Positions 6,065-57,289 of a DNA stretch of 64,000 nucleotides are shown here, in pieces (positions within the stretch are counted from its first letter, which is position 1; each line of letters begins with the position of its first letter). The notes under the pieces were generated by a model, which was not told the origin of the DNA, ran no database searches, and saw only the letters and a program-made list of their open reading frames with translations. The DNA is from Caldibacillus debilis DSM 16016 (GTDB taxonomy: Bacteria > Bacillota > Bacilli > Bacillales > Caldibacillaceae). Location of the stretch: the NCBI RefSeq assembly GCF_000383875.1, contig NZ_KB912879.1, forward strand, positions 186,001 through 250,000. The letters run 5' to 3'. The position numbers and the translations under genes were made by a program.

Positions 6065-7612
6065 TCAATACATTTCAGAAACGGTTTTGGCCTGCATGTG
6101 CAGCAACAAATAATCGGGTCCGCCGGCCTTTGAATCGGTGCCGGACATGTTGAACCCGCCGAAGGGTTGATAGCCGACGATCGCGCCGGTGCAGCCGCGG
6201 TTGAAGTAGAGGTTGCCGACGTGGAATTCTTCCCTCGCCTTTTCCAGGTTTTCCCGGTTGTTGGAGATCACCGCACCGGTCAACCCGTATTCGGTATTGT
6301 TGGCAATTTCAAGGGCATGGTCGAAATCTTCCGCTTTGCAGAAGGCGACCACCGGGCCGAAGATTTCTTCCTGCATGATGACGGCCTTCGGGTCGAGGTC
6401 GGCAAACACGGTCGGCTGGATGAAGAAGCCCTTCGAGCTGTCCCCTTCGCCGCCGGTCATCAATCTTCCTTCCTTCTTGCCGATTTCAATGTATTTCATG
6501 ATTTTGTCGAAGGCGGCCTGATCGATGACCGGGCCGGTGAAGTTTCCGTAATCGGCGGGATCTCCGACTTTCAGTTCCTTCGTCAGTTCCACCACCCGGT
6601 CAAGCACTTGGTCGTAAACCTCTTTGAGGGCGACCACCCGCGAACAGGCGGAGCATTTTTGCCCGGAAAAACCGAAGGCGGACGTGACGATGGATTGGGC
6701 CGCCAATTCCAGGTCGGCGTCCTTGTCGACGATGATCGTATCCTTGCCGCCCATTTCGGCGATGACCCGTTTCAACCAGATTTGGCCCGGATGGACTTTC
6801 GCCGCCCGTTCATAAATGCGGACACCCACTTCTTTCGATCCGGTGAAGCTGATGAAGCGGGTCTTCGGATGATCGACCAAATAATCGCCGACTTCGGCGC
6901 CGCTTCCCGGGATGAAGTTCAGCACGCCGGCGGGAAGCCCGGCCTCTTCCAAAACTTCGACAAATTTCGCAGCCACGACCGGCGTGGCCGATGCCGGTTT
7001 CAATAAAACCGTATTCCCGGTAACGAGGGCTGCCACCGTCGTACCGCACATAATGGCAAAGGGGAAATTCCATGGCGAAATGACCACGCCGACACCGAGG
7101 GGAATGTACCCGAAGCGGTTGGATTCCCCGGGGCGGCTCTCCACTTCAAATCCGTCCTTGATCCGCAGCATCTGCCGGCCGTAATATTCCATAAAGTCGA
7201 TGGCTTCCGCGGTGTCCGCGTCCGCCTCCCGCCAGGATTTGCCGGCCTCTTTGACCATCAGCGCGCTGAATTCATGCTTCCTTCTGCGGACGATGGCCGC
7301 CGCTTTAAACAAGATGTCGGCACGGGCCTCCGGTTTGAACTTCCGCCATTCGTTGAATTTTTCCAGGGCGGCCTGCATGGCCTGTTCGGCAAGTTCCCGA
7401 TTGGCCTTCGACACCCGGCCGATGACTTCGTTTTTATTGGCGGGGTTGACCGAAACGATTTTTTCCTCCATCCGGATCCTTTTTCCGCCGATGACAAGAT
7501 CGTACTCCCGCCCCAATTCGGCTTCCACTTTTTTCAATGCCCGCAAAAAAGCTTGACGGTTTTCTTCCCGGGAAAAATCGGTGAGGGGCTCATGCTTAAA
7601 CGGAACAACCAT
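6065..7612 (-). CDS. rocA: L-glutamate gamma-semialdehyde (1-pyrroline-5-carboxylate) dehydrogenase
   Basis: A 515-residue aldehyde dehydrogenase, the length of B. subtilis RocA/PruA. It oxidises glutamate semialdehyde to glutamate with NAD+, the last step of proline and arginine catabolism in the cytoplasm. Visible features are the NAD-binding stretch [10 protein letters not shown] near residue 178, FTGSKEVG near 256, the general-base Glu286 in IAEMGGKD, and the nucleophile Cys320 in [11 protein letters not shown]. The start at 7612 is chosen for the AAAGGAGG box six bases upstream; a TTG 18 bases earlier is weaker. It appears monocistronic. No proline dehydrogenase gene is visible in the window. 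Confidence 0.95.
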
Positions 7613-7819
7613 GAAAATCCTCCTTTTCAAAACGTGTTCACAATCAACCTCATTCTATCATGTTCCCGAACGGTCGTTCAACGGCCGCGCCTTTCGGCCG
7701 CCGTGCCTCCATTCCCTTCCCTTTGACGCGGCCGGATGAAAAGCGAGTCTTTCCATTCCCCGGCATCTCCTGCGCCGAAGGCCCGCATCGCGGATCTGGC
7801 GCCCCGATTCGCCGGAAAA

Positions 7820-11010
<3,191 letters not shown>

Positions 11011-18590: not shown

Positions 18591-19709
18591 TCACCGTTCG
18601 ATAATCCTGGATACATCATAGGGGGATAGGGGGACATCGCATTTTTCCCCGAGGGCGATCTTCGCCACCTGCAGCCCGAGATAGGGCCCGACCGTCAAAC
18701 CGGAAGAACCGAGCCCGTTGGCGACCAGCAAACCGTCGAATCCCGGGACGGGCCCGAAAGCGGGCATAAAATCGGAAGCGACGGGGCGGAACCCGAAGCG
18801 GGCCTCCAGAAATTGCCCTTCCGCCAATCCCGGGGCGGCAGATAAGGCCTTGTCCAAAATGGCATGCAGCCCGCCGGCCGTCACCCGTTCGTCGAAGGCG
18901 TCATCATCTTCATGGGTTGATCCGGCGAGAATCCTCCCGTCGTCAAAGGGCAGGATGTACTGGCTTTCCGGGAGCATGAGCATCGGCCAATCCTCCGTCT
19001 CCCGGTTTCTCAACTGGAGATGGACGATTTGCCCCTTCTGGCCCCGCACCTTCATCCGGATCCCGAGGGGCCACAGCAGCTCCGGCGTCCACGCCCCCGC
19101 GGCGACGATCACCGTGTCGGCCGGATAATATTCCCCCGAAGCGAAGACTCCGGTTACCGTATTTCCCTGGAAATCCAATTCCGCCGAGCGGATCGCGGTT
19201 TTAGCGCCGTGTTTTTTTGCGGCATTGAGGAGGGCCTCCCTCAAGGCGGAGCCGTTCACCCTCGCCGCCCCGCTGACATAAAGGAAGTAAAAATCCTTGC
19301 TTAACAAGGGGAACATTTCCGCCGCCTCATCGGGCGCAAGTTCGCGGACCTCCCCCATCTCCGGGGCATCTTCCCGCCTTTTCAAGACCCTTTCCTTCAT
19401 TTTTTCCAGTTTGGACCGGTCCCTGTGGAGGGTGATGACGCCCACCCGGCGGTAACCGGTGTCCGTCTCCCCATCCTTTTCCAGCTCCTCCACCAATTCC
19501 GGAAAGTAACGGGTCCCCAACTTGGCCAGCAAATACCAGTCTTTGTTTCTCCGCTGGGAAAGCCACGGGCACAGGACGCCGGCCGCGGCATCCGTCGAAC
19601 GGCCCGTTTCCCCGCGGTCGATCACCAAAACGTCCGCCCCCGCTTTGGCCAAATGATAGGCGCAGGAGGCGCCGAATATCCCCGCGCCGACAATCACGAT
19701 TTTTTTCAT
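18591..19709 (-). CDS. FAD-dependent amine oxidoreductase (DAO family)
   Basis: A 372-residue flavoprotein. The N terminus is a dinucleotide-binding fold, KKIVIVGAGIFGASCAYHLA, with the ribose-binding Asp in VLVIDRGE. Substrate-domain strands follow (VRGQKGQIVHLQL, SQYILPFDDGRILAGSTHED) and the C-terminal FAD contact is GLLVANGLGSSGLTVGPYLG. This is the layout of glycine oxidase/DadA-type enzymes; the exact amine substrate is not deducible. The ATG at 19709 follows AAAAGGTG; the upstream GTG overlaps that box. It lies between purB and pbuG, where B. subtilis has yebC-yebG and the pur operon. Confidence 0.85.
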   Translation of the reverse strand: MKKIVIVGAGIFGASCAYHLAKAGADVLVIDRGETGRSTDAAAGVLCPWLSQRRNKDWYLLAKLGTRYFPELVEELEKDGETDTGYRRVGVITLHRDRSKLEKMKERVLKRREDAPEMGEVRELAPDEAAEMFPLLSKDFYFLYVSGAARVNGSALREALLNAAKKHGAKTAIRSAELDFQGNTVTGVFASGEYYPADTVIVAAGAWTPELLWPLGIRMKVRGQKGQIVHLQLRNRETEDWPMLMLPESQYILPFDDGRILAGSTHEDDDAFDERVTAGGLHAILDKALSAAPGLAEGQFLEARFGFRPVASDFMPAFGPVPGFDGLLVANGLGSSGLTVGPYLGLQVAKIALGEKCDVPLSPYDVSRIIER

Positions 19710-21872: not shown

Positions 21873-21982
21873 GACGAGAGGGTACGCGGAAAGAAGGGCA
21901 TGATCCGCCCGTCCCGCTCCCCCGCCGGGAAAAAGAAAACAACGGGGAAGGGCGGCGTCATCCCGTTCCTCTCACGCATCTC

Positions 21983-22049
21983 CTCGTAGTCAAGCTATTT
22001 ACGGTAGCTTGGTAGAGACTTGCGGGCCATATTCCCGCAATTATACGAG
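21983..22049 (-). promoter_or_regulatory. Purine riboswitch aptamer (guanine class), pbuG leader
   Basis: P1 pairs CTCGTA (5', 22049-22044) with TACGAG (21988-21983). The conserved core TATAAT, the P2 arm, AGTCTCTACC and the P3 loop CCGTAAA are all present. The discriminating base in the J3/1 segment GACTA is C, which predicts guanine/hypoxanthine rather than adenine binding. It precedes a terminator and pbuG. Confidence 0.95.
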
Positions 22050-22069
22050 TTTTCGATTCAGTTTTCTTT

Positions 22070-23919: not shown

Positions 23920-23950
23920 ATGTTTCCAAAAAAAGACATACAGGATCTGC

Positions 23951-24018
23951 CTTCATAGTCAAATCATTTCCGGTGATTTGGTAGAGACTCCCGAACCGAT
24001 TATCGGGATTATATGAAG
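23951..24018 (-). promoter_or_regulatory. Purine riboswitch aptamer (guanine class), guaA leader
   Basis: P1 pairs CTTCATA (from 24018) with TATGAAG (ending 23951). Core segments TATAATC, AGTCTCTACC and CCGGAAA are present. The J3/1 segment reads GACTA, with C at the specificity position, predicting guanine. Excess guanine would terminate guaA transcription. Confidence 0.95.
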
Positions 24019-24157
24019 GTGATTGGACAGCCTATTCAGTTTTTCTGCGGCGGATCGATGACCGCCGCCTTTGGCGGTTCTTACAAGATTGGAGCACCCA
24101 TTCCGTTTTTCCGGGTTCCGGAAAAATCCGTTCCCGGTGATAAAATGCTTTGCATTT

Positions 24158-30493: not shown

Positions 30494-31710
30494 CTGTCCA
30501 TCCCCCCGCCAAAGGCATTGGCAAAATTCTCCTCCCGCAGGATTTTTACGAATATTCCCCGGTTTTTCGCCAGATTCATCATTTTCGTATCCCCGGGAGA
30601 AATTTGTTCATCGTTCCCTTTTACGCAGACCAACAGTTTCGCCCCCCGCGGCGAAACATTTTTGCCTATGGCCTCGATGTCCTCTTCCCGCAAGGCCGTC
30701 GTGACGAAGATTTTATTGATGTTCTGCAAAAAAATCACCGGATCGTTTTCAATCTGCTTGTGCCATGGGATGGCCGATTCGTCCTCCACCTTTGCCAAAA
30801 AGTAAAACATCGCCTGTTTATGAAAGACTCCCCCTTGGACGGGGAAATAGTGCCGCTCCTTTTCGCAGGCATACAAACCGGCTTGGCCGCCCTTTTTGAT
30901 CACCGCCTGGATGAGGGAGGCGGTAAATTTCACCGCCAAATCAAAGGTGCCGCTCGGCGAACAATCAAGAACGATCATGATATCGTTCGTTTGCCTTTGT
31001 TCAAACTCTTTCGTCATCAATTCGTTCCTCCGGGCGGTGGCCTTCCAATGGATCCATGAAAACCGGTCGCCGGGCTGGTAATCCCTTAATTGGACGGCCA
31101 TGGTGGAATCCCTTTTCACCTGGTCTCGCACCGTCGCCATCCCCTGGTCGAAATAATTTTCAAAGGGCCGGTAAACCATGTCCACAACGGCGGGATAAAC
31201 GAGAAAAGAATCTTCGCAGGGAATCCGCCTGCTTTTTTCGACGAATCCGAACCAGTCGGCCACATATATCCGGACGGCGGGAAACACGTATTCCCCCCGG
31301 GTGATATTCGGGATGGCGTACTGAACGGCCAGCTCTTTTTTAAAGAAGGCAAACAGCAAAGTCTTGTAAGGAGTTCTCCCCCTTTTGGCCAGTTTCTCCG
31401 GCATTTCGTCCAAAAGGGTGAGAAAGAAAAGGGGCGAACGGAAGGGCAAACGGACGGTCATTTTCATCCGGACCGTTTCCCCTTCGGAAACATCCGTCTT
31501 TGCAATCTCCCGCATCACTTGAATTTTTTGAACCGGATAAAACAGGATGAAGAGGGCGTACAGGGCAAAGGGCAGGATGCTGAAAAAGAGAAACCAGGAG
31601 ACAAAGCCGCCTTGAAACATTCCATAGGAAAAGGCCGCAAAGAACAAGAGCAGGAAACCGATGATTTTCGCGCCGGCGATGACATGGCGATTTACCGCTT
31701 TCATTTTCAT
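30490..31710 (-). CDS. yeaD: DUF58 protein (YeaD family)
   Basis: A 406-residue protein with two N-terminal transmembrane segments (IIGFLLLFFAAFSYGMFQGG and WFLFFSILPFALYALFILFY). A beta-rich region and the DUF58 signature RDYQPGDRFSWIHWKATAR near the middle follow. The C terminus is a degraded von Willebrand A-like fold (NDIMIVLDCSPSGTFDLAVK). DUF58 proteins partner MoxR AAA+ ATPases. Its ATG overlaps the moxR stop by one base (TAATG) and its stop overlaps yebA, so all three are translationally linked. Confidence 0.9.
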   Translation of the reverse strand: MKMKAVNRHVIAGAKIIGFLLLFFAAFSYGMFQGGFVSWFLFFSILPFALYALFILFYPVQKIQVMREIAKTDVSEGETVRMKMTVRLPFRSPLFFLTLLDEMPEKLAKRGRTPYKTLLFAFFKKELAVQYAIPNITRGEYVFPAVRIYVADWFGFVEKSRRIPCEDSFLVYPAVVDMVYRPFENYFDQGMATVRDQVKRDSTMAVQLRDYQPGDRFSWIHWKATARRNELMTKEFEQRQTNDIMIVLDCSPSGTFDLAVKFTASLIQAVIKKGGQAGLYACEKERHYFPVQGGVFHKQAMFYFLAKVEDESAIPWHKQIENDPVIFLQNINKIFVTTALREEDIEAIGKNVSPRGAKLLVCVKGNDEQISPGDTKMMNLAKNRGIFVKILREENFANAFGGGMDR

Positions 31711-32666
31711 TATTTTCCGTACCTCTGGATCGGGACTTTTACGGTTCGGACGACATCGTTGACCAATTGCTCCGCCGTGATGCCGTTGTATCTGGCCTCC
31801 GATTTTAAAATGAGGCGATGGGCGAATACGTAAGGAGCCAAAAACTGGATGTCATCGGGGATGACGTACTCCCTCCCGTGGAGGAAGGCGTAGGCCTGGG
31901 CGGCTTTCATGATGGCGATGGAACCCCGTGGGCTTACCCCCAGATAAATGTGGGGATGATTCCGCGTCCTTGCGACGATGTGGACGATATATTCCTTTAT
32001 CGTTTCATCGACAAAAACGGACCGGATTTCCTTTTGATATTCCTGCAATTCATCGGTGGTGATCACCGGTTCCAGTTCTTCGACGGAAACGTCCGCCTGG
32101 GCGCGGGTCAAGACTTCCACTTCTTCCTGAATGGAAGGATAGCCCATTTTCATTTTCAGCAAAAAACGGTCCAATTGGGCTTCCGGAAGGGGATAGGTCC
32201 CTTCGTACTCGATCGGGTTTTGCGTGGCCATGACAAAGAACGGTTTTTTGAGCGGATATGTGACCCCGTCGATGGTTATATTTCCTTCCTCCATCCCTTC
32301 CAGCAAGGCGGATTGGGTCTTCGGGGAAGTCCGGTTGATTTCGTCGGCCAAAATAATGTTTCCCATAATCGGACCGGGCCGGTATTCGAACTCCATTTCC
32401 TTCGGATTATAGATGGAAACCCCCAAAACATCCGAAGGCAGCAAGTCCGGCGTGAACTGGATCCTTTTAAACTGGGCGTTGACAGATTTCGCCAAACTTT
32501 TTACCAGCTTCGTCTTCCCGACACCGGGCACATCCTCCAGCAAAACGTGCCCGCCGGCCAACAGGGCGGTCAAACAGAGCACCGCTTCCTTTCGTTTTCC
32601 GATCATGATTTTTTCGATGTTTTCTATAATATCGCCGAGCTTGGGATGCAATGTTTCCGTAATCAC
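31710..32666 (-). CDS. yeaC: MoxR family AAA+ ATPase (YeaC)
   Basis: A 318-residue AAA+ ATPase. Walker A is EDVPGVGKT near residues 44-52 and Walker B is ILADEINRTSPKTQ. Sensor 1 is MATQNPIEYEGTYPLPEAQL, the arginine-finger/sensor region is LDRFLLK, and the lid has VSPRGSIAIMKAAQA. The GTG at 32666 is preceded by GGAGG at seven bases; the frame is open 15 codons further upstream without a signal. MoxR proteins act as chaperones that activate or assemble a partner, here presumably through YeaD and YebA. It is the first gene of the operon. Confidence 0.93.
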   Translation of the reverse strand: MITETLHPKLGDIIENIEKIMIGKRKEAVLCLTALLAGGHVLLEDVPGVGKTKLVKSLAKSVNAQFKRIQFTPDLLPSDVLGVSIYNPKEMEFEYRPGPIMGNIILADEINRTSPKTQSALLEGMEEGNITIDGVTYPLKKPFFVMATQNPIEYEGTYPLPEAQLDRFLLKMKMGYPSIQEEVEVLTRAQADVSVEELEPVITTDELQEYQKEIRSVFVDETIKEYIVHIVARTRNHPHIYLGVSPRGSIAIMKAAQAYAFLHGREYVIPDDIQFLAPYVFAHRLILKSEARYNGITAEQLVNDVVRTVKVPIQRYGK

Positions 32667-33130
32667 AGGGTCCCCTCCAAAAATAAAGATCGCAACGTAT
32701 TCATTCGACAATCGACAAAAGGATTCCTTTCTTTAAAAATAATCAAAATTATGGAATAATGCAAACTTTATTTCCTGTGATCCGGCGTTTTAAGAGGAAC
32801 TGGCCGGGAAAAGTTTGCAAGGGAAATGCGGACCCTGTTCCCGCCGCCGGGTTCAAGAATAATCGGAGGTTCCATCCATGTCCCGTCTCTGCCCGCTTTT
32901 TTCCCGCTGGCGGGGTTAAAAACAATCGGTCCTGAGACGGGGCAAGGCCGGATCGGCACATGTTTCGCTTCGCCGGAAGGCCGACGGGGAATCCGCCGTT
33001 TTTTCGCCGCGACCCATTCATGATTTGCGGGAAGATTTGCGGACGGATGGACCGCCGCAGCTGAAGGGCATTCTGCGGCAATTCGAAAACGGGATCGTTG
33101 CCGGACAATGACCAATTGGGACCGGATTTT
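32667..33130. other. Gene-free interval upstream of moxR
   Basis: The first 90 bases are AT-rich and likely hold the moxR promoter, which I cannot place with confidence. The rest is GC-richer. Minus-strand frames running through it have no ribosome site or family motif. Confidence 0.5.
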
Positions 33131-33475
33131 GGACATATCGCGGACGATGATGGACACCGGGAGCGATGATGGACATTTTTTGTCCGGTGATGGACATTTT
33201 TTTCAGGATGATGGACATTTTTCCTTTCATGACGGACAAATTTTTTCCCGTGTTGAACATAAATGTGAAAATGATGGACCAATCATCGAAAATGACGGAC
33301 AATCGCATACGGTGCCGGACGGTTTTTTTATGATATGGAACGATCCGAAGGAAATGGCGGATAATCCCCTGTAAAGTCATAACATAGGTTGAACGTTTTA
33401 CCCAAGATATTGGACATACCAATCTTTTATTGGACTTTTTTGCAAAATGTCGGACACTTCCCCTTGATGCCGGAT
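33131..33475. repeat. About 21-bp-phased array of GATGGACAT-like motifs
   Basis: GGAC-type cores occur at 33131, 33152, 33171, 33192, 33213, 33234, 33255 (GAAC), 33276, 33297, 33317, 33337 (GGAA), 33359 (GGAT), 33391 (GAAC), 33412, 33432, 33452 and 33472 (GGAT). Apart from one 32-base gap, intervals are 19-22 and mostly exactly 21. The best copies read GATGGACATTTTT. All face the same way. The regular phase (two helical turns) and conserved core with variable spacer suggest repeated protein-binding sites. There is no adjacent candidate binding-protein gene. Confidence 0.7.
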
Positions 33476-33792
33476 CATCCTTCCACGGCGGAAACAGGGA
33501 TGTTGGACATTCCGGTCGGGCAAAAACCGCACGTCGGACATTCCTGCGCCGCGCCGAACAATCCGCCCTCCGTGCCGGTCAACGAAGGACAGGCGGCGAA
33601 CCGAATCCAATCCGATATGAAAAAAACCGACTGCCATGAAACGCCCCTCGGAATTTCCCCCATCCGCAGCAAGCATCGGCCGCGATTCAGTAGGGGGGCT
33701 TGCCTGAACGGGAGCCGGTCATCAAGGAATGACGGCATTTCAAGATGCGGCGTTTCATCTCTCCTCAATGAAGCCCGGCGTCTTCGCAACTG
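33476..33792. other. Gene-free interval with two further array-like motifs
   Basis: TTGGACATTCC (core at 33505) and TCGGACATTCC (core at 33536) continue the array motif at about 31-base spacing. Beyond 33560 I see no gene or element; open frames lack ribosome sites. Confidence 0.5.
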
Positions 33793-33967: not shown

Positions 33968-35302
33968 TCAATACTGCTTCAAATATTGCTCCAGCTCCCA
34001 CGGATGCACCTGCACGCGGAACATATCCCATTCGATCTCCTTCGCTTCGATAAACCGTTCCAAAATATGGGGGCCGAGGGCATCCTTGATGACTTCGTCG
34101 GATTTCAGATTTTCCAAGGCCTGTTCCAAAGTGGACGGCAAATCGACAATGCCTTCTTTCAGACGTTCCTCCTTCGTCATCACATAGATGTTCCGGTCGA
34201 CGGGATCGGGCGGCGTCAGCTTGTTCTTAATGCCATCCAGCCCCGCCTTCAGGATGACCGCCATCGCCAAATAGGGATTGGCGGAAGGGTCCACGCTCCG
34301 GATTTCCAAACGGGTGCTCATGCCGCGGGACGAAGGGATGCGGACGAGGGGGCTCCGGTTTTTCGGCGACCAGGCCACGTAGCAGGGCGCTTCATACCCC
34401 GGCACCAGCCGTTTGTAGGAGTTGACCGTCGGGTTCGTCACCGCGGTGAAGTTCGGCGCGTGTTTCAATACCCCGGCCAAAAACTGGTACGCCGTTTCGC
34501 TCAATTGGAATTTCCCCTTTTCGTCGAAAAAGGCGTTTTCCCCGTCCTTGAACAGGGAAACATTGCTATGCATGCCGGAACCGTTGATCCCGAACACCGG
34601 CTTCGGCATGAACGTGGCGTGGAGGCCGTGCTTTCTGGCGATCGTCTTTACCACCAGCTTGAAGGTTTGGATGTTGTCACAGGCCGTGACCACATCGGCG
34701 TATTTAAAATCGATCTCATGCTGGCCGGGGGCGACCTCATGGTGGGAGGCTTCAATTTCAAACCCCATGTTTTCCAGCTCGATGACGATGTCCCTGCGGC
34801 AGTTTTCCCCGAGGTCCGTCGGGGCCAAATCGAAATAGCCGCCGGCATCATTCAGTTCCGATGTCGGTTCCGCTTTTTCATCCAATTTAAAAAGGAAGAA
34901 TTCCGGTTCCGGACCGAGGTTAAAACTGGTAAAGCCAAGTTCCTTCATTTCTTCGAGAACCCGTTTCAAATTCACCCTCGGGTCTCCGATGAAGGGAGTG
35001 CCTTCCGGCGTGTAAATGTCGCAGATCAGGCGGGCAACTTTTCCGTCGCCGGTCGTCCAGGGAAAAACCACCCACGTGTCCAAATCCGGATACAGATACA
35101 TGTCCGATTCCTCGATCCGCACGAATCCTTCGATGGACGAACCGTCAAACATAATCTTGTTGTCCAAGGCCTTCGGCAGCTGGCTGATCGGGATCTCGAC
35201 ATTTTTAATGGTCCCCAAAATGTCGGTGAATTGGAGACGGATAAATTTGACATTTTCCTCTTTTGCCATTCGTTCAATATCTTCTCTCGTGTATTTGCCC
35301 AT
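33968..35302 (-). CDS. glnA: Glutamine synthetase, type I
   Basis: A 444-residue GSI-alpha enzyme, identical in length to B. subtilis GlnA, making glutamine from glutamate, ammonia and ATP as a dodecamer. Visible motifs are the latch/strand [20 protein letters not shown] near residue 55, metal-ligand Glu residues in [12 protein letters not shown], the ATP-binding [14 protein letters not shown] and KPASATPxxS-like [20 protein letters not shown]. The C terminus [12 protein letters not shown] contains the family feedback-inhibition tail that also binds GlnR/TnrA. The ATG at 35302 has GGAGG upstream. It is co-transcribed with glnR 24 bases upstream. Confidence 0.97.
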
Positions 35303-36802: not shown

Positions 36803-37219
36803 ACATTTACTACTTTTTTCCTTCTCCGGTCAATCGGTTTCTACAGGAAATGGAAAAAAGGAACGTGGCGGGCCGGGAAAAGAACCGGCAGAAACGCCGG
36901 CGTAGGGAAAACGGCGAACGCCGCCCGCTTGTTCGAGACCGGGAAATTCCGAATGACATATGGCAGGGCGCCAGAAAAAATTTTTCCATTTATGCCACTT
37001 CAAGAACTTGAAAGTTTGTAAAACATTTTGCAAAACCGGCCCGAAAAAACGGCAAACATTGTTGAATTTCGGCAAATTTTGTCGAATATAAGAATGTCAA
37101 GCGATTTTCAACCCCATTCCCAGATCCCGGAAAGTTTTCCGGAAGATTGATCCGCATAGGACGGCCCACTGAAGGGGATTGCATCCGGCAAGAAAAATAA
37201 AGACAGAAAGGTGATTTCC
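36803..37219. other. Divergent interval nadE / chemoreceptor
   Basis: About 415 bases without a gene. The region near 36970-37100 is AT-rich and likely holds the chemoreceptor promoter. I looked for a sigma-D pattern (TAAA-N15-GCCGATAA) and found only weak fits. Confidence 0.5.
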
Positions 37220-38983
37220 ATGAAGCGCAAGTCCTTCTTCGGCTTTTTGTCATCGATTCAATCAAAGCTGATCTTCTTTGCCGTTTTATTTTTGACCGTC
37301 CCCGCCGTCATTTTCTCCGTATTTACATATTACAAGACTTCCACCAGCCTGAATGCGGTCGGCGAAACCAATTTAAAAAACAGCGTGAAAATGACGATCG
37401 AAATGATCAATGCCTTAAACGATGAAGTGGAACAGGGAAAAATTCCCTTGGAAGAGGCCCAGGAAAAGGTGAGAATCGCCATATTGGGGGAAAAAGATGA
37501 AAACGGCATCCGGCCGGTCAACAAAAAGATTGATTTGGGAAAAGACGGGCATATCATGGCCTTCGATCAAAATGGAGTTGCCGTCGCCCACCCCGATAAA
37601 GAAGGCCAAAATTTGTCGGATCGAAAGGACTCGAAGGGCGTAATATTTGTCCGGGAGATCCTGAAAGCGGGGGATAACGGCGGAGGTTTCGTTTATTTCG
37701 ATTACCCCCGGCCCGGCAAAAATAAGGCCGAAAAGGTCATCGCCTATGCGGAAACCGAACCGAACTGGGGATGGACGATCTGTGTCACCGCCTTTATGAA
37801 AGATTTTAACCAGCCGGCCCATGAAATCCTTATCTTCCTTGCCATCACGGCGGGAATCATGCTGCTCCTCGAAATTTTGATCGTATGGAGATACGCGGGC
37901 AACATCTCCAAACCGATCCGCCGCGTGACGGAAAAGATGATCCGCCTCGCCGACGGGGATTTGACCCAGGAAAAAATCGAAATCCGGTCGCGGGATGAAA
38001 CCGGACAATTGGCTGAAGCGGTAAACATCATGGCGGAAAAATTAAAGGAAATGCTCCGCAATATTTCCAGCGCATCCGTTTTAATTTCCAGCCACAGCGA
38101 AGAATTGGCCCACTCGGCCAATGAAGTGAAAACCGGGGCGGAACAAGTGGCGCAAACCATGGAGGAATTGGCCGCCGGTTCGGGCAGGCAGGCCAGCAGT
38201 TCCAGCGAAATGTCCGAAAAGATGAAGGATTTTGCGGCAAAAGTCCAAGAATCCAGCCTTCACGGGGAAAAAATGGAGCAGTCCTCGAAAGAAATCCTGG
38301 AAATGGCCGGCGAAGGCAATCAATTGATGGACGCTTCCGCCAAACAGATGGAAAAAATCGACCGGATCATGAAGGAAACCGTCGACAAAGTGCAGATGCT
38401 GAACAGCCAGGCCCAGGAAATCAACAAACTCATCTACCTGATCCGGGACATCGCCGATCAGACGAATTTGCTCTCCTTGAACGCCGCCATTGAAGCGGCC
38501 CGGGCGGGAGAACAAGGAAAGGGATTCGCCGTTGTCGCCGACGAAATCCGGAAACTGGCGGAACAGGTGGCCGTATCCGTTTCCGAAATTACGGAAATCA
38601 TTCAAAACATCCAAAAGGAATTCCAAAACGTGACCGAGGCGTTGCAGGAAGGCTATCAAGAAGTGGAAATGGGGACCGCCCAAATCGAGATTACGAAAGA
38701 AAGATTCCACAGCATCAACGAATCGATCCGCAAAATGGCCGAAAACATCCAAACCATTTCGCGAAATCTTGCCGATATTGCCTCCAGCAGCCAGGAGATC
38801 AACGGATCGATCCAGGAAATCGCCGCGATCGCCGAAGAATCGGCGGCCGGCATCCAGCAGACTTCCGCTTCCGCCGAACAAATCTCCAGTTCGATGGAAG
38901 AAATCTCGAAAAGCTCCGATCAGCTGTCCAAGCTGACCGACAACCTCAACGAACTGGTCGGCAGATTCAAGCTGTCGTCCTGA
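37220..38983 (+). CDS. Methyl-accepting chemotaxis protein with extracellular Cache domain
   Basis: A 587-residue receptor. TM1 ([20 protein letters not shown]) starts near residue 15. The extracytoplasmic single-Cache sensor (about 40-195) contains [19 protein letters not shown] and [15 protein letters not shown], typical of small-ligand sCache_2 sensors. TM2 ([20 protein letters not shown]) and a HAMP linker follow. The cytoplasmic coiled coil has the kinase-binding tip [20 protein letters not shown] and [12 protein letters not shown]. It would signal through CheW/CheA. The ATG at 37220 has AAAGGTG at good spacing. It is monocistronic; the ligand is not predictable. Confidence 0.92.
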
Positions 38984-38991
38984 GCTCGCAC

Positions 38992-39032
38992 AAACGGGAT
39001 GCGGGGAATGTTCCGCATCCCGTTTGATTTTT
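38992..39032 (+). terminator. Terminator of the chemoreceptor gene
   Basis: Perfect 13-bp stem AAACGGGATGCGG/CCGCATCCCGTTT followed by GATTTTT, nine bases past the stop. Confidence 0.92.
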
Positions 39033-56947: not shown

Positions 56948-57018
56948 AGCGGGTGATGGGAATCGAACCCACGACAACAGCTTGGAAGGCTGTGGTTTTA
57001 CCACTAAACTACACCCGC
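56948..57018 (-). tRNA. tRNA-Gly (TCC)
   Basis: A complete 71-nt cloverleaf. Acceptor GCGGGTG/CACCCGC, D arm TAGTTTAGTGGTAAAAC, anticodon loop CTTCCAA with TCC, T loop GGTTCGATTCC. CCA is not encoded. It is the last gene of the tRNA cluster in transcription order. Confidence 0.95.
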
Positions 57019-57289
57019 ATTTCAGGCATAGTCTATAACACAAGTACCGGTTTGGAATGCCTCTTCCACTGCTAGCCGTTTCCGGGGAGCTGGGTGCGTC
57101 GAGGCAACTCGCAGCCTTTTCAGCGGAGCGTCGCTCGTGGCTGTGGTTTTACCACTAAACTACACCCGCGTATCAGGCATAGTCCATAACACAGGTATCG
57201 GTTTGGAATGCCTCTTCCTCTGCCAGCCGTTTCCGGGGAGCCGGATGCGTCGAGGCAACGCACAGCTTTCCGACGGAGGATCGCCCGTT
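56988..57289. repeat. 151-bp tandem duplication containing part of tRNA-Gly
   Basis: Unit A (56988-57138) and unit B (57139-57289) align over their whole length with scattered mismatches. Each starts with the 5' 31 bases of tRNA-Gly (on the minus strand) and continues through the same upstream spacer, with shared words GGCATAGTC, GGTTTGGAATGCCTCTTCC, CAGCCGTTTCCGGGGAGC and GCGTCGAGGCAAC. Divergence between units shows that it is not a recent event. Confidence 0.9.
57139..57169 (-). pseudogene. Truncated tRNA-Gly (5' part only)
   Basis: The first 31 bases of tRNA-Gly (acceptor strand, D arm, start of the anticodon stem) are identical to the intact copy, then sequence changes abruptly before the anticodon. 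It cannot form a cloverleaf. It arose from the 151-bp tandem duplication. Confidence 0.9.

Follow-up and report, generated by a model that had tools for sequence, protein, structure and literature searches.

Plasmid iterons are direct repeats of about 19–22 bp to which Rep proteins bind. The arrays analyzed here resemble them in their direct repeats, two-turn spacing, and conserved core; unlike iterons, they form at least 39 dispersed chromosomal sets with degenerate filler, and no rep gene was found among the 40 of 75 neighboring proteins scanned. Centromere-like parS, parC, and tubC arrays are multi-site, phased, and non-coding, as the present arrays would be if binding is assumed, but those are single-site systems, whereas the arrays here occur genome-wide and no partition gene was found among the neighbors scanned. 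Tn7-, IS21-, and Mu-type ends similarly carry several transposase sites at ~20-bp steps; the arrays differ from them in lacking an adjoining integrase gene, in their single orientation, and in their copy number of at least 39. REP, BOX, and bcr repeats and MITEs share with the arrays the dozens of homologous intergenic copies, and seven of the 39 arrays lie in ISLre2 derivatives. By contrast, the body of each array is a phased set of up to ~20 conserved-core sites, bounding inverted repeats are missing from most copies, and cores such as TGTTGAACA are, by eye, only short imperfect palindromes in comparison with the REP type.

The nearest kind that we found is the TAACTGA family of Beggiatoaceae and Cyanobacteria, described as heptamers in many intergenic sets of direct repeats without a known partner (PMC4679880). 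The likeness lies in one short word, direct repeats, many intergenic sets, and the lack of a known partner. The TAACTGA repeats differ in being heptamers and in belonging to other phyla, and in one species they stand mostly just upstream of start codons (PMC4679880). We recognized no published description of arrays like the present ones in the literature searched, which left subscription papers and preprints outside its scope, and we do not claim that they are absent from print. We class them as a further form of dispersed intergenic repeat and multi-site array; whether they amount to more depends on the protein partner.

Layout of the window array

The window, by which we mean the whole stretch of 64,000 nucleotides of Caldibacillus debilis DSM 16016 that was analyzed, contains a 1.3-kb gap with a MoxR-type ATPase gene on one side and glnA on the other. 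In this gap, 20 ATGTTGGACA-like cores, all on the plus strand, occupy 33123–33570, with core-to-core steps of 21, 19, 21, 21, 21, 21, 21, 21, 20, 21, 21, 32, 21, 20, 20, 20, 33, 31, and 20 bp. The features are as follows.

33123–33570, plus strand: whole element, one copy of a dispersed ~450-bp array family (profile positions 2–449 of 451; nhmmer 1.7e-125, envelope 33123–33570)
33126–33362, plus strand: first block, 12 cores (33126 to 33354) at steps of 19–21 bp (sequence; motif search finds 10 of 12)
33147–33249, plus strand: best-conserved part, made of GATGATGGACATTTTT-type units that carry T-tracts; beyond the first step the period is 21 (TRF; column conservation over 40 rows)
33386–33475, plus strand: second block, 5 cores, preceded by a 32-bp step that is 33 bp in the family consensus (sequence; 33-bp step seen 46 times over the copies)
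33500–33559, plus strand: third block, 3 cores, preceded by a 33-bp step (sequence; alignment)
31710–32666, minus strand: flanking gene, MoxR-type AAA ATPase, named by reading the translation (ORF list; gene call)
33968–35302, minus strand: flanking gene, glutamine synthetase glnA, named by reading the translation (ORF list; gene call)
Starts of the 9-mer cores, all plus strand: 33126, 33147, 33166, 33187, 33208, 33229, 33250, 33271, 33292, 33312
Starts of the 9-mer cores, continued, all plus strand: 33333, 33354, 33386, 33407, 33427, 33447, 33467, 33500, 33531, 33551

A strict motif search recovered 13 of the 20 cores, and the seven weaker ones (33126, 33354, 33386, 33427, 33467, 33531, and 33551) were assigned by eye. 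The cores and steps listed in the preliminary description were reproduced to within a base, and one more core was added at the 3′ end. The same description had proposed an autocorrelation check at lag 21. Self-identity at this lag over 33131–33541 was 0.362, as against 0.252 (sd 0.023, maximum 0.315; z=4.7) in 1000 dinucleotide shuffles, so the excess over shuffled sequence is present. Among lags 5–59, 21 gave the highest value; 300 shuffles reached at most 0.353, whichever lag was taken. TRF reported period 21 at 33165–33222 and period 42 at 33165–33247. No opposed array was found in the window by profile search, all 20 cores having one orientation.

Elsewhere in the window, a period-21 signal at 38671–39000 was rejected as coding, as it lies inside an ORF (37211–38983) that reads as a chemotaxis receptor. 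A 151-bp tandem duplication (1.8 copies; 56988–57266) reaches into the tRNA-Gly of a six-tRNA cluster, and two purine riboswitches stand ~1.9 kb apart on the minus strand (21967–22068 and 23936–24036).

A dispersed array family in Caldibacillus debilis

The array in the window belongs to a family of at least 39 dispersed, non-coding, intergenic, core-conserved phased arrays of common descent. Using blastn, we obtained at least 42 matches to it in its own genome; 40 of 83 first-look candidates were scored, so the array numbers given here are minimum values. We built a profile from 15 copies and ran it on the stretches fetched around these matches, which yielded at least 39 distinct arrays on 18 contigs, the window copy included, with two loci that each held two overlapping or adjoining matches (L021 and L042) counted once. 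Full copies are ~450 bp long and homologous, hold ~15–20 copies of a ~10-bp core, and keep the unit order and two 33-bp steps; several copies are partial, and mean pairwise identity is 66.5%. Of 510 steps between recognized cores, 353 measured 19–22 bp and 46 measured 33 bp; in this genome, shared descent alone accounts for part of this conservation. With up to two mismatches, the pattern GATGATGGACRTTTTT had 145 sites, as against 2 for its reversed control. The earlier suggestion of one chromosomal locus of iteron or centromere type is, as it stood, unsupported: the arrays lie on 18 different contigs, and no rep, parB, parR, or tubR gene was found among the 40 of 75 neighbors scanned.

None of the 39 arrays is overlapped by a gene called with confidence by our own simple gene caller; small, low-scoring ORF calls (score 8–14) overlap five of them (L012, L019, L021, L022, and L043). 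By hand tally, the genes on either side are divergent for about 12 arrays, convergent for about 6, and tandem for about 18, and 13 of the 18 in tandem context run opposite to the direction of the genes. Array orientation agrees with the nearby coding strand in only 13 of 39, and GC skew revealed no leading-strand bias (18 of 39 arrays). The next gene is mostly 120–700 bp away. Along the contigs, the arrays are spaced slightly more regularly than expected by chance (CV 0.61 vs 0.87, P=0.03), with one inter-array gap below 10 kb vs 3.6 at random (P=0.10). A Pfam scan of 40 of the 75 flanking proteins assigned a family to 38 at 1e-8, all ordinary genes without a common functional theme; no transposase, ParB, Rep, or integrase was among them. 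When the family was masked, a weak lag-21 signal (z 3.4) persisted in the fetched loci of this genome, where no other strong period-21 array was found.

Other features were seen beside the arrays. One gene with a NERD (nuclease-related) domain is enclosed by a pair of arrays in the same orientation (L034:6006–6436 and 7798–8247), and longer-unit tandem intergenic repeats of ~42, 36, and 48 bp adjoin arrays at L034:6380–6530, L033:6400–6600 and 7544–7700, and L044:5562–5760.

Two inverted-repeat words accompany some copies. Within 1.6 kb and at a threshold of at least 24 matching letters (single shuffles reach 15–20), one or both were found at L010, L012, L023, L026, L029, L030, and L033; the left word is always upstream and the right word always downstream of the array, and both are strong only in L026 and L029. 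In L029, a UPF0236 (PF06782) remnant separates the array from the right word, and the start of a UPF0236 gene, by reading, apparently falls between the left word and the array. Outside these seven copies, a few more have shared pieces and the others show no common flank; the window copy has no bounding terminal inverted repeats. L029:5685–7095 and L026 represent an ISLre2/UPF0236 insertion sequence reduced by deletion, with an array enclosed by its inverted-repeat words; L029 retains part of the transposase gene. Because of these words and the UPF0236 remnant in L029, one ISLre2-type derivative probably carried the array to some of its places. A stranded Tn7, TniA, or IS21 end, also considered in the preliminary description, finds no support: the copies number at least 39, every array keeps to a single orientation, and neither the rve matches nor the 40 of 75 flanking proteins scanned place an integrase-type gene beside them. 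The genome has three matches to rve, the DDE integrase family (C23:7901, C2:17068, and C40:39477, the last below the cut-off), from which the nearest arrays among the matches listed are 3.7, 29, and 11 kb away, respectively.

Arrays in other Bacillales

By blastn, the window array itself had no match in 40 relatives of the order, seven of them from the same family, or in plasmids and phages. An exact two-unit pattern was likewise without match in genome-contig and viral-contig collections, from which its own genome is possibly absent. A three-unit pattern with at most one mismatch occurred in 5 of 299 genomes of the order, with 120 sites in the own genome, 15 in G286, 6 each in G091 and G124, and 1 in G268; the reversed control gave one site in all. 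The filler of the arrays in those four other genomes differs from that of the window family.

We then scanned intergenic gaps de novo in stretches of 12 other genomes, at lags 15–31 and with the best array kept per gap. This gave 21 arrays, all but one with a period of 20 or 21. Nine of them came from the 51 stretches, in 11 genomes, that had not been chosen by pattern; eight of these nine have period 20–21 and belong to G001, G124, and G268. One of the eight (L063) is AT-rich, perhaps simple sequence. No array of period 20–21 rose above threshold in the sampled stretches of G013, G018, G020, G025, G004, and G005, five unselected G286 stretches held no array, and the sampled stretches of G016 held only one, at lag 30. 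Thus, some sampled Bacillales, not all, carry intergenic arrays with a 20–21-bp step, mostly with other cores.

The cores of these arrays vary (TACCGAATA, TCGCCGGA, TTTACCCGAATTC, CGCGGATATATTCC, TAAGAGCG, and others), and the words differ between arrays even inside single genomes. G001, which belongs to another genus of the same taxonomic family, has six loci with a dispersed array family of its own, whose core is TTTACCCGAATTC; six other genomes of the taxonomic family lack it. One gene flanks arrays in both G000 and G001, as against ~0.3 expected by our own estimate, which is no signal. Because some other Bacillales share the geometry with other core words, the two-turn geometry seems more conserved than the word. 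In G124, 20-bp arrays with 90–99% lag identity and at least three different cores were seen at L075:3250–3650 and 19100–19400, L077:5150–5470, and L078:17890–18300.

Core conservation and competing explanations

The core consensus of the family, A-T-G-[T/A]-[T/C]-G-[G/A]-A-C, is the ATGTTGGACA word, with frequencies over 663 site positions of A(85%)T(92)G(80)[T/A][T/C]G(92)[G/A]A(90)C(91)A(63). Mean departure from consensus per column was 10.8% in the core, 21.8% at three intermediate positions, and 28.6% in the filler (core vs filler, Mann-Whitney 7e-21), in a 40-row alignment that has one redundant row and excludes short fragments of L042 and L022; later counts omit row L021_5075, a repeat of L021_4700. 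Because such column conservation could reflect one evolving master copy, we compared six close array pairs, hand-chosen among nearest neighbors with other close pairs that share a member omitted. Core positions differed at 29/606 (4.8%) and filler positions at 157/1259 (12.5%; p=6e-8). The count of singleton states ran in the opposite direction (core 86/3997, filler 109/8252), a result against selection, behind which filler saturation perhaps stands. Indels and substitutions numbered 126:2247 over 42 close array pairs; the one pair whose flanks were counted gave 4:32 there, numbers too small to judge a depletion of indels. Since core positions vary much less than filler, the cores look as if they are under selection; as in a multi-site array, they are more conserved than their spacers, except in the singleton count. 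Of the helically phased, one-sided protein-binding sites in a gene-free gap that had been proposed at the outset, the phased layout is borne out by the step lengths and by the stronger conservation of cores than of filler among the copies, while the binding of a protein is what we infer.

Our favored but tentative reading, which could well prove right and could somewhat more easily prove wrong, is that the cores are docking sites for a cooperative DNA-binding protein whose neighbors interact along one face. Two-turn (19–21 bp) and three-turn (31–33 bp) steps keep the cores near one face of the helix, and a sequence-specific protein would occupy adjacent cores with cooperative binding. Such a protein row might act at the level of the chromosome, insulating neighboring genes or anchoring or organizing the nucleoid, rather than as a single-gene operator; these roles are favored over simple operators because the arrays lie in long gaps, mostly 120–700 bp from genes. 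Part of their spread would be hitch-hiking in an ISLre2-type insertion sequence.

The arrays may instead be a non-autonomous mobile element, its transposase-binding repeats spread by transposition and otherwise functionless. In its favor are the shared order of units in at least 39 homologous copies and the constant polarity of the inverted-repeat words in the seven copies, one of which lies beside the transposase remnant. We nevertheless consider it unlikely: the words are absent within 1.6 kb of 32 of the 39 arrays, no terminal inverted repeats were seen by eye at array ends, the more complete UPF0236 copies (C36 and C37) do not coincide with array coordinates among the matches listed, the scanned neighbors are ordinary genes, and the cores are still spared in close pairs. 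A neutral minisatellite, in which tandem duplication favors two-turn units and the cores are the part homogenized by recombination, appears slightly less likely still. Lag identity of up to 99% at period 20 in G124 and an unequal number of units at one locus between G286 and G091 are in its favor, but in the own genome the filler is specific to each unit position and is retained from copy to copy, and therefore the units are not homogenized. Cores also change 2.6 times less than filler in the close pairs, and the sparing recurs in two same-place arrays of the congeneric G286 and G091 (core 0/40 vs filler 17/88; core 4/90 vs filler 29/103), both against neutrality. Phased T-tracts might also bend the DNA and so pin supercoils or recruit an unspecific architectural protein. 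Predicted curvature over 105 bp, calculated with wedge parameters, exceeded that of dinucleotide shuffles in the 39 arrays (mean z 1.9; 22/39 above 1.64); no consistent excess appeared in 20 arrays of other genomes (mean z 0.5), and the most conserved part is the core, not the T-tract, which makes this structural role improbable.

Readings at the level of RNA or protein fare worse still. For a repeated site of an RNA-binding protein or a terminator, the gene context elsewhere looked suggestive: among 21 arrays from five other genomes, listed by hand and different from the 21 found de novo, 15 were tandem, 6 convergent, and none divergent, against a long-gap background of 165, 23, and 44. Five further G001 loci then gave three tandem, one convergent, and one divergent (L150:4320–4593), and in the own genome the roughly 12 of 39 arrays between divergent genes argue against such an element, as does the window array, which has no Rfam match at gathering cut-offs; we judge it very improbable. 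A decayed or living coiled-coil gene, with heptads encoded in 21 bp, is already largely refuted and retains scarcely any credibility. To its credit, stop-free runs exceed the filler-shuffled control (median 0.83 vs 0.56; 22/39 above its 90th percentile), 15 of 39 arrays are open in some frame across their central part, and the only two matches of the array model in other genomes of a phylum sample are coding heptads (G346 and G531). The arrays nevertheless share no reading frame: the best frame in homologous coordinates is open in at most 7 of 39 copies (2 of 39 over a wider stretch), 27 of 39 have frame-breaking indels, and variability shows no codon-phase effect (p=0.44). Several arrays in other genomes have period 20, which cannot be heptads. 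The decayed heptad gene that the preliminary description had named as fatal to its own reading was therefore not what we found, with the caveat that stop-free runs are longer than in controls.

The phylum sample just mentioned comprised 398 genomes searched with array model R1, of which three matched, the own genome and the two with coding heptads; with 11 candidates scored per genome and strict filters, this is a weak census. ORFs with 21-bp heptad codes (VEQRLDR and DGRMDKL) that mimic the array motif in DNA were seen at L125:1354–2040 and L126:1433–1771. For annotators, it follows that intergenic 21-bp periodicity is not always degraded coding DNA, and that the array DNA model also picks up genuine coding heptads.

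The strongest objection to docking by one protein is the variety of cores within genomes, which no single sequence-specific protein explains. Because cores differ within single other genomes, there would have to be several proteins, or a process that is not based on one word. At its broadest, and at long odds in our own estimate, the docking reading extends to a chromosome-wide set of a few dozen protein-coated intergenic arrays that anchor the chromosome or divide it into domains in several Bacillales, with the two-turn geometry conserved, the core words rapidly replaced, and protein and word co-evolving. If the arrays are docking rows, the C. debilis genome holds several hundred natural aligned sites of one DNA-binding protein, and that protein could therefore be isolated directly. 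The arrays of some other Bacillales, which keep the helical step but use different words, would in that case be a sign of an undescribed layer of chromosome organization or gene insulation.
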